Part shown: piece after piece, positions 25,345-27,891 of the stretch
How the letters are laid out: each line of letters starts with the position of its first letter
How positions within the stretch are numbered: the first letter of the stretch is position 1
DNA from: Patescibacteria group bacterium
Lineage (GTDB): Bacteria > Patescibacteriota > Patescibacteriia > UBA1558 > GWA2-36-10
Assembly (NCBI GenBank): GCA_028718865.1
Contig: JAQUKX010000008.1
Location: 1 to 32,869 of the forward strand
DNA: 32,869 nt
Direction of reading: 5' to 3'
Program-made: the position numbers and the translations under genes
Notes under the pieces: model-generated
Told to the model about the DNA's origin: nothing
The model's database searches: none
The model's input: the letters and a program-made list of their open reading frames with translations, nothing else

Positions 25345-25917
25345 ATGCTTATACCAACCGTAATAGAAAAAGTGCCCGGCGGCGAAAGAGCTTATGATAT
25401 TTATTCCCGCCTGCTCAAAGAAAGAATAATTTTTTTGGGTGACCCGATTGATGACAGGATAGCCAATCTAGTGGTGGCGCAGCTTCTTTTTTTGGATGCT
25501 CAAGATCAAAAGAAACCGATAAAAATGTATATCAACTGCCCAGGCGGATCAGTCACTGACGGCCTGGCTATTTACGATACCATGCAGTATGTCAAAAGTC
25601 CGGTTTCCACTATTTGCATCGGACTAGCCGCTTCCATGGGCGCCTTGCTTTTGACAGCCGGCAGCCAAGGACAACGCTATGCTCTGCCCAATGCCGAAGT
25701 GTTAATCCACCAAGTAATGGGCGGCGCCAGTGGACAAGCCAGTGATATCAAAATAAAAGCCGAGCAGATTCTCAAGCTAAAAAGCCGCTTGAACAAAATT
25801 TTACAAAAACACACTAACCAGCCACTAAAAAAAATAGAAAAAGATACTGACCGCGACTATTACATGACCGCCGAGGAAGCGCTGGAGTACGGCTTGATAG
25901 ACAAAATAATAAAATAA
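25345..25917 (+). CDS. clpP: ATP-dependent Clp protease proteolytic subunit
   Basis: Serine protease barrel that works with a ClpX or ClpA-type unfoldase. The 190-residue protein starts [20 protein letters not shown]. The catalytic triad is in place: S97 in AASMGA, H122 in LIHQVMGG and D171 in [19 protein letters not shown] and [20 protein letters not shown] are standard. No propeptide is evident. A TATAAT at 25296-25301 may be its -10 box; the -35 is poor. No SD is seen before the ATG. Confidence 0.97.
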
Positions 25918-25962
25918 GCCGAAAAACTCTTTCCAATTTTTGGCAAATGTGATAATATATTT

Positions 25963-26090
25963 TTCGAGACGAGTTTTTGGGTTTTTCAACCCACTAACAT
26001 ATGCTCGTCACGGAGGCCATCGGCGCATGGCACCAATTGGTAGTCGTAAGACTTCAAGCGATGCCAGGCACTACGCCGATGGTCTTTTTT
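25963..26090 (+). ncRNA. Possible structured small RNA or structured mRNA leader
   Basis: An extended -10 (TGTGATAAT, ending 25956) would start a transcript near 25963. The RNA folds well on paper: GACGAG (25968-25973) with CTCGTC (26004-26009) around GGGTT-TTTC-AACCC, then an 11-bp stem, 26015-26025 with 26074-26084 (one G-U). Inside that lie TGGCA/TGCCA, TTG/CAA and AGTC-GTAA-GACT with a GNRA tetraloop. Six T follow the long stem, as in a terminator. It does not match SRP, 6S, RNase P or tmRNA hallmarks. The region also contains the start of a possible 47-codon gene, so the two readings compete. Confidence 0.45.
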
Positions 26091-26170
26091 ATATCAAGAT
26101 ATGGGACTTGATTTTTCCAGCAGCTTATGGTAGATTGACTGACGAGGATAAAATCCTCAGTAAAGTTTAA
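26027..26170 (+). CDS. Possible 47-residue protein with strong SD inside a structured region
   Basis: ATG 26027 is preceded at 10 bases by GGAGG (26012-26016), the same spacing as the 14145 gene. It encodes MAPIGSRKTSSDARHYADGL, then FYIKIWDLIFPAAYGRLTDE and DKILSKV. Composition is protein-like, with a hydrophobic centre and an acidic end. However, the start lies between the two arms of an 11-bp stem that also takes in the last two G of the SD, so translation would be poor unless the fold opens. A hairpin (GAGGAT-AAA-ATCCTC) lies near the stop. No family recognised. The competing reading is a non-coding RNA. Confidence 0.45.
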   Translation: MAPIGSRKTSSDARHYADGLFYIKIWDLIFPAAYGRLTDEDKILSKV

Positions 26171-26280
26171 AAAATTAATTTACTGTTTTACCTGTTTTGA
26201 AAGCTATTGGACAATTTTGACGCTATAAAAAATCTAAATTAGCGCCTAAAAAAGCTTAAATTTGTGTCTATAAACAACTC

Positions 26281-26339
26281 TATAATAAGTATTTCTCGCG
26301 ACCGTCAGGCCTCAATTGACGGTAGTTGGTTGTTTTTTT
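26281..26339 (+). promoter_or_regulatory. -10 box and hairpin/T-run in the rny leader
   Basis: The 206 bases before rny hold no gene. TATAAT stands at 26281-26286 (poor -35). ACCGTCA (26301-26307) pairs with TGACGGT (26317-26323), and 9 bases later comes a run of seven T (26333-26339). An outer AAACAAC/GTTGTTT pairing is possible. It may be an attenuator or a processed leader of the rny operon. Confidence 0.4.
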
Positions 26340-26376
26340 CTCAAAACTAAAACAGTAAATCGGAAAGCTAGATAAG

Positions 26377-27891
26377 ATGGAATTAATATGGCTAATAGCC
26401 GCTCTTCTTGCCGGTGCTTTTTTTGGTTTTATAATCAGAAAACTCTTTATCAGCCAAAGAATAAAATCAGCCGAAAGTAAAGCGGAACACATTTTGTCCG
26501 AAGCCAAACAAAATGCTAAGGACACCCTCCTAGACGCCAAAGACAAGGCGCTGGGCATAATCGAAGAAGCGAAAAAAGAAGAAAAAGAAAGGCGTGATCA
26601 GCTCCAAGAAGTGGAAAAGCGCCTAGCTGGGCGCGAGTCTCTTTTTGATAAAAAATTGCTGGAACTGGAAGACAGCAAGCAAAAAATCGGCCACGACCGG
26701 CAACAGCTGGAAAAACAAAAAGCTGAAGTTCAAAAAATCAAGACTGAACAGCTAACCAAGCTGGAAAAAATCGCTGGTCTCAATCAGGACGAAGCTAAAG
26801 AAATTCTGATAAAAAATACCGAGAGCCGGATGAAAGACGAGCTGATGCATCGTCTGCGCAAGCTGGAAGAACAATCTAGTGAAGAACTCGACAAAAAAGC
26901 CAAAGAAATCCTCAGCTCAGTCATAGAGCGCTGTGCCGCTCCCCATACAGTGGAGACCACCACCACTGCTGTCAGCCTACCCAACGAAGAAATGAAAGGA
27001 CGCATTATCGGTCGCGAAGGCAGAAACATCAAAACCATAGAACAGCTCACTGGCGTAGAAATAATCATTGATGACACGCCCGAGTCTATTTTGATTTCAG
27101 CTTTTAATCCTATTCGCCGCCAGCTGGCCAAGCGATCTTTGGAAAAGCTGATGGTCGACGGACGTATCCATCCCGGCCGCATTGAAGAAACCATCCAGCA
27201 AGCCAAAAAGGAATTGGCCTTAGATATCAAAAAAGCCGGAGAAGAAGCTGTCTATAAAGCCGGCGTTATCGGACTAGACAGCAAGCTCATTCAAGTACTG
27301 GGACGCCTTAAATACCGCACCAGTTATGGCCAAAATCAATTGCAACATGCTATTGAAGTTTCCCATTTATCTGGCCTTCTGGCCTCTGAATTGAAAGCTG
27401 ATGTCGGTATCTGCAAAAAAGGCGGACTACTCCACGATATTGGCAAGGCCTTGGATCATGAAATTCAAGGTTCTCACCCTGACATCGGCTACGACCTGAT
27501 GAAAAAATTCGGCTTGCCGGAGGAAGTGGCTTATCTGTCGCTGGCTCACCATGAAGACCATCCCAAAACTCTGGAAGGCATAGTAGTCAAAATCGCTGAC
27601 GCCATTTCCGGCTCGCGGCCGGGCGCCCGACGCGATTCCTTTGAAGAATACATCCAGCGTTTGACCGAGCTGGAAGACACCGCTAAATCTTTTGCCGGAG
27701 TGGAAAAAGTCTACGCGATTCAAGCCGGCCGAGAAATCCGCGTCTTTGTCTCGCCAGAAAACATAGATGATTATGCCGCTGTCCAACTAGCTAGGGATAT
27801 CGCCAACAAAATAGAAAATGACTTGCGCTATCCCGGCGAAATAAAAGTAACTGTTATCAGAGAAAAAAGAATTACCGAATATGCCAGATAA
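26377..27891 (+). CDS. rny: Ribonuclease Y
   Basis: Membrane-anchored endoribonuclease that starts mRNA decay. The 504-residue protein has the family layout: one N-terminal helix (LIWLIAALLAGAFFGFIIRK), a long charged coiled coil (about 30-190), a KH domain with GRIIGREGRNIKTIEQLTG, and an HD domain with catalytic H353-D354 in LLHDIGKALDHE. The C-terminus PGEIKVTVIREKRITEYA is typical. It overlaps ymdB by 11 bases. GGAAAG lies about 13 bases before the ATG, a weak ribosome site. Confidence 0.97.
   Translation: MELIWLIAALLAGAFFGFIIRKLFISQRIKSAESKAEHILSEAKQNAKDTLLDAKDKALGIIEEAKKEEKERRDQLQEVEKRLAGRESLFDKKLLELEDSKQKIGHDRQQLEKQKAEVQKIKTEQLTKLEKIAGLNQDEAKEILIKNTESRMKDELMHRLRKLEEQSSEELDKKAKEILSSVIERCAAPHTVETTTTAVSLPNEEMKGRIIGREGRNIKTIEQLTGVEIIIDDTPESILISAFNPIRRQLAKRSLEKLMVDGRIHPGRIEETIQQAKKELALDIKKAGEEAVYKAGVIGLDSKLIQVLGRLKYRTSYGQNQLQHAIEVSHLSGLLASELKADVGICKKGGLLHDIGKALDHEIQGSHPDIGYDLMKKFGLPEEVAYLSLAHHEDHPKTLEGIVVKIADAISGSRPGARRDSFEEYIQRLTELEDTAKSFAGVEKVYAIQAGREIRVFVSPENIDDYAAVQLARDIANKIENDLRYPGEIKVTVIREKRITEYAR

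Follow-up and report, generated by a model that had tools for sequence, protein, structure and literature searches.

A candidate family-specific noncoding RNA gene between clpP and rny in a Patescibacteria lineage

The intergenic region between clpP and rny in a Patescibacteria genome contains a highly structured segment that overlaps an open reading frame of 47 codons, which raises the question of what this locus encodes: a small RNA, a small protein whose start is gated by the fold, both of these, or a leader of the next gene. We examined it in a stretch of 32,869 nucleotides, hereafter the window, to which all coordinates refer unless a locus handle is given. Positions 25965–26090 on the forward strand appear to form the gene for an RNA of ~125 nt, which is very probably a standalone noncoding RNA and neither a protein gene nor a leader. 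The features in and around it are as follows.

25345..25917, + strand: upstream neighbour, an open reading frame that we take to be clpP; syntenic in 17/17 loci
25927..25958, + strand: putative promoter, in which a T-rich stretch replaces the -35 box and is followed by an extended -10 box, TG-n-TAATAT (25950–25958); motif in 17/17 loci
25965..26090, + strand: predicted small RNA gene; 17 members by the covariance models R1 and R2, fold z-score -6.5
25968..26009, + strand: P1 domain, a 7-bp stem pairing 25968–25974 with 26003–26009; double changes on the alignment fitted to the covariance model (CM)
25978..25993, + strand: P1b hairpin with its tetraloop at 25984–25987; family consensus NUUY with a U-A closing pair
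26014..26085, + strand: P2 terminator stem of 11 bp, 26014–26024 with 26075–26085, enclosing P3
26025..26069, + strand: P3 arm, with the apical motif 26041–26054 (U-RGYY-GNRA-RACY-U) as its cap
26085..26090, + strand: six-T tract, predicted transcript end; sequence identity downstream is at the level of shuffled letters
26027..26170, + strand: 47-codon frame, not conserved and not a gene on present evidence
26377..27891, + strand: downstream neighbour, an open reading frame presumably rny (RNase Y), preceded by a leader and a promoter-like site of its own

The minimum free energy (MFE) of 25958–26091 was -54.6 kcal/mol, compared with -31.4 ± 3.6 kcal/mol for 200 dinucleotide shuffles (z = -6.5), none of which folded as well. 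P1 encloses the P1b hairpin and an A-rich, one-sided unpaired stretch; the MFE fold adds a G-U pair to the 11 bp of P2, P3 is followed on the 3′ side by an A-rich one-sided bulge (26070–26074), and the GNRA loop is GUAA at 26046–26049. Folds of the window RNA and of 16 homologues gave z-scores of -4.1 to -9.3 (100 shuffles each), and the single-sequence folds of all 17 share one architecture, with L022 deviating in P1. The extended -10 box, the nested fold with an 11-bp stem (P2 around P3), the GNRA tetraloop and the six-T tail, all reported in a previous sequence-only reading of the window, were thus recovered at the positions listed above.

Homologues were collected in steps. DNA similarity gave matches in 7/53 genomes, including the window's own; in G007 the match ran through the rny leader only, and the RNA was read beside that leader. 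The resulting 7-row alignment contained double changes in 11/30 predicted pairs and was the basis of R1, which matched 17/21 family genomes with one strong match each (seven of these had built the model and 10 were independent). With completeness of 90% or more and contamination of 5% or less required, 11/12 family genomes were matched; in the order's other families, 0/15 genomes were. R1 also listed three weak matches of 23–26 bits in family genomes: two (G003 and G004) were antisense of the same P2/P3, and the third was a second match in G017 (L025, 26.3 bits). The antisense P2/P3 self-matches at L013 1468–1574 and L012 1548–1651 were left out of the counts.

Each of the 17 RNAs directly follows clpP on its 3′ side and shares its strand. 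The four RNA-negative family genomes (G002, G010, G014 and G020) had no clpP match at E ≤ 1e-30 either, so the absence of the RNA from these assemblies may reflect an assembly gap. R2, built from the 17 rows, matched 16/380 genomes of the class and 2/379 of the phylum, all within the RNA's own family; outside it no match was found in either sample under Infernal's stricter filters, with which weak relatives could be lost. Thirteen clpP loci from sister families within the order, of which one (L040) ends inside clpP, gave no R2 match at E ≤ 10. A pattern scan of named genomes returned nine matches. Eight scored 88–121 bits with R2 and are true members, titled as Komeilibacteria (two), Candidatus Parcubacteria (four) or only ‘bacterium’ (two), and these duplicate genomes counted before. 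The ninth, in Undibacterium (L044), went unmatched by R2 at E ≤ 1; we took it as a chance match. The RNA would be inherited vertically at one site within this family of very small, uncultivated bacteria. On comparative sequence evidence, the locus is best read as a new lineage-specific, family-level noncoding RNA that is well supported as a gene.

We then asked where the conserved unit begins and ends. The motif T[AG]TG.TA..?AT ends 5–6 nt upstream of the RNA in 17/17 loci, the 5′ end of the RNA being itself placed from the position of the -10 box, and invariant columns, T and A, stand at -34 and -20 in the promoter alignment of the 17 loci. A simple scan for promoters and terminators missed both the RNA promoter and the P2 terminator, because it accepts a promoter only with a -35 box and a terminator only with a loop no longer than 8 nt. 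The promoter had a mean pairwise identity of 0.68 (shuffled letters, 0.55) and the RNA one of 0.67 (0.50), compared with 0.50 in the 60 nt 3′ of the terminator (0.49) and 0.52 in the following 100 nt (0.52), these last 160 nt being compared from an ungapped start. This profile indicates that the conserved unit consists of promoter, RNA and terminator. Features expected of a standalone noncoding RNA were examined together: a conserved promoter of its own is present in 17/17 loci as judged from sequence only, a predicted terminator stem and T-tract coincide with the boundary of conservation, and the structure carries compensatory changes.

These changes were quantified on a MAFFT alignment of the 17 rows, using 42 pairs and 500 shuffles. 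Paired cells amounted to 83.6% (76.9% in shuffles), pairs with double changes to 23 (14.6) and the covariation score to 0.379 (0.247). On both the MAFFT and the CM-fitted alignments, 0/500 shuffles came up to the observed value for paired cells, for double changes or for the score; further pair types were no commoner than in shuffles, the observed value being reached by 306/500 (MAFFT) and 96/500 (CM-fitted). Shifting the partner by 1–3 columns reduced pairing to 28–47%. Covariation at homologous clpP–rny loci had been set beforehand as a check on the proposed structure, and it was found.

The signal was distributed over the stems. P2 had 98.4% of cells paired on the MAFFT and 98.9% on the CM-fitted alignment, with double changes in 7/11 pairs, and P1b had 92.2% paired and double changes in 5/6 pairs (MAFFT). 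In the MAFFT alignment many rows have the 3′ arm of P1 out of register, and P1 accordingly reached only 59.5% there; on the CM-fitted alignment, which leans toward the structure and is the only one on which P1 pairs well, it had 97.5% paired and 6/7 pairs double-changed. The P3 arm is looser (76–81% paired, the first two pairs excepted). Its cap is a GNRA loop in 17/17 RNAs, the apical A-U pair is replaced by G-C as a double change in 5/17, and the step beneath the pair that closes the apical loop is U-A in 8/17 RNAs and not a standard pair in 9/17. The P1b loop, read by eye from the alignment and folds, is NUUY in 15/17 (exceptions, L010 and L013). By-eye inspection of the alignments led us to reject a pseudoknot that would pair the 5′ CAAG with the apical CUU, as it is broken in L018 and shows no covariation.

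The same comparison bears on the 47-codon frame. The sequence-only reading had proposed that a GGAGG-10-ATG start opens a protein-like frame running past the T-tract. The letters are indeed there, with GGAGG at 26012–26016, 10 nt upstream of the ATG at 26027, and a stop ending at 26170, but the frame is not conserved. An ATG occurs at the homologous position in 1/17 loci, namely the window alone. Frames of at least 20 codons opening at that position with GTG or TTG exist in L009 (22 codons) and L013 (48 codons), and they resemble the window frame only in a few residues derived from the conserved apical motif. RNA lengths vary by non-multiples of three, which disrupts any frame, and conservation stops at the T-tract, well upstream of the frame end. 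The conserved start and frame expected of a small protein gene are thus missing. A dual-function RNA, or a small gene gated by the stem, is the least probable of the explanations considered, despite the well-placed GGAGG in the window. Since the frame is not conserved, a fold-gated start released by a ligand or by temperature likewise finds no support. The proposed structure is real, and the proposed 47-codon gene is a chance frame. What held of the earlier proposal is a putative small RNA that is structured and has a promoter and a terminator of its own.

A structure that follows clpP in 17/17 loci and ends in a stem and T-tract could merely be the clpP terminator. We consider this very unlikely, as a terminator requires neither a promoter conserved in 17/17 loci nor a covarying P1 domain. 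A cis-regulatory leader of rny, whether riboswitch, attenuator or thermosensor, would also fit a structure that ends in a terminator, and in 14/17 loci the next long frame with the RNA's orientation is rny. A leader of this kind should lie in the 5′ UTR of the gene that it controls; in 3/17 loci (L011, L013 and L017) a convergent frame instead follows immediately 3′ of the RNA. These opposite-strand frames end 66, 81 and 122 nt past the RNA, respectively, and 477, 198 and 169 of their codons were seen. In L013 rny lies behind the inserted convergent gene, and in L011 and L017 rny was not seen downstream. The convergent gene in these three loci argues for a free-standing RNA and against an rny leader. 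In addition, rny's own promoter-like site (26108–26136) lies past the RNA terminator, and the 160 nt past the terminator, in the ungapped-start comparison, are not conserved. We regard the leader reading as just as improbable as the clpP terminator.

We next compared the standalone RNA with known classes. Rfam gave nothing on the window RNA at gathering or permissive thresholds; at E ≤ 5, three weak, chance-level matches appeared in 25900–26376, none of them on the RNA. Across the window, ARAGORN and Rfam yielded five tRNAs and nothing else, none of them at this locus. With Rfam 15 at E ≤ 1, the 16 other homologous loci had no match on the RNA, and the five matches obtained all fell at L018 713–826. 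The earlier impression that the RNA belongs to no known class was accordingly upheld, with no Rfam match in any of the 17 RNAs. The segment at L018 713–826 is a long hairpin between a DHH-type gene and clpP whose weak matches are to plant microRNA models, which it presumably draws by shape only.

6S RNA and signal recognition particle (SRP) RNA were compared individually, because both were undetected in this family. 6S RNA is one long rod with a large symmetric central bubble. The window RNA is likewise a standalone structured RNA; unlike 6S RNA, it has two hairpin domains and neither a long rod nor such a bubble. It was not identified as a 6S RNA, given this fold and the lack of an RF00013 match. 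At E ≤ 1, RF00013 matched 0/21 family genomes, so the 6S niche may be open in the family; it matched only 6/14 controls, indicating that this model is weak across phyla. With small bacterial SRP RNA, the RNA shares an arm that ends in a GNRA cap above a non-canonical step; it differs in having no RF00169 match, and the conserved symmetric loop that serves Ffh in SRP RNA was part of the comparison. RF00169 matched 0/21 family genomes and 13/14 controls. Identity with SRP RNA was rejected, as there was no RF00169 match and no Ffh M domain was found in these genomes; SRP RNA is not expected in a class that appears to lack Ffh, its partner.

The closest general resemblance is to intrinsically terminated small RNAs, with which the RNA shares a length of ~125 nt, a putative promoter of its own, a terminal stem with a U-tract, single copy number and intergenic position. 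Such size, an own promoter and an intrinsic terminator are typical of trans-acting antisense small RNAs. The RNA could pair with target mRNAs through its exposed 5′ end, the loop of P1b or the A-rich strand on the 3′ side of P1, and the conserved U-rich P1b loop would suit this. In contrast to these small RNAs, it has no long conserved unpaired seed: no conserved unpaired run reaches 7 nt, and what is conserved is the stems, the NUUY loop and the GNRA-capped apical motif. For two neighbouring targets, native RNA–mRNA pairs were no stronger than mismatched species pairs, the co-folding counts showing no excess (6/14 for the rny start and 6/14 for the clpP start region). Antisense action is a possible but weaker candidate, to which we would assign about one chance in three.

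Conserved unpaired runs are only about 3–4 nt long (the CAAG-like 5′ end, NUUY and GNRA), and the longer unpaired stretches, rich in A, vary across the 17 RNAs. For this reason we favour protein binding over antisense pairing, the short runs pointing, not strongly, to a partner that reads shape rather than to a seed. If the RNA is indeed standalone, protein binding is its likelier mode of action; identity and mechanism taken together, a standalone RNA recognised by a protein is an explanation that we hold slightly more probable than its negation. The transcript would be made from its own extended -10 promoter, end at the U-tract after P2 and act in trans as a structured RNA. A protein would recognise it by its shape, by the NUUY loop of P1b and by the apical motif of P3 with its bulged or mismatched U, Y-A step and GNRA cap, and the RNA might then sequester or scaffold that protein. 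More specifically, it could be the core of a lineage-specific ribonucleoprotein with a housekeeping job, for example as a polymerase- or ribosome-binding stand-in for 6S RNA in cells that have apparently given up SRP, which we consider rather unlikely. The RNA is present in 17/17 clpP-bearing family genomes with a conserved promoter, and the genomes measure ~0.6–1.2 Mb; it therefore likely matters to the cell. The portions of the literature available to us contained no description of a noncoding RNA family for this bacterial group, and those of PMC8321541 and PMC7203096 did not describe this RNA, which is now a defined object to seek in metatranscriptomes.

Separately, SRP components were surveyed across the window's class. 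SRP RNA was found in 0/91 genomes (G000–G090; controls, 12/14) and the Ffh M domain in 0/53 (controls, 14/14), while the SRP54 GTPase domain exceeded the cut-off in 2/53 as partial, weak matches (controls, 14/14). The signal recognition particle thus seems to be missing in this class; class-wide loss of this near-universal pathway, if true, would be notable, and the literature passages that we could consult held nothing on it.

The rny leader itself (26108–26376) has features of its own. It has a promoter-like site, TTGATT .. TATGGTAGATT, and contains the complementary segments ATTTACTGTTTTA (26178–26190) and TAAAACAGTAAAT (26348–26360), the latter directly ahead of the start region. TTTACTG, as read by eye from the sequences, recurs in 13/14 rny leaders (loci L008–L024). 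The pairing is the best long-range helix in 9/13 leaders tested, and in 4 of those 9 it beats every one of the 20 shuffles; in the sister-family loci L035, L036 and L037, different sequences that could pair lie equally far from the start. The leader is possibly autoregulatory; RNase Y autoregulation is reported for B. subtilis in the part of the source available to us (PMC10303841). Within the leader, 26301–26340 also contains a terminator-like hairpin (ACCGTCAGGCCTCAATTGACGGT) with a T-run close behind.
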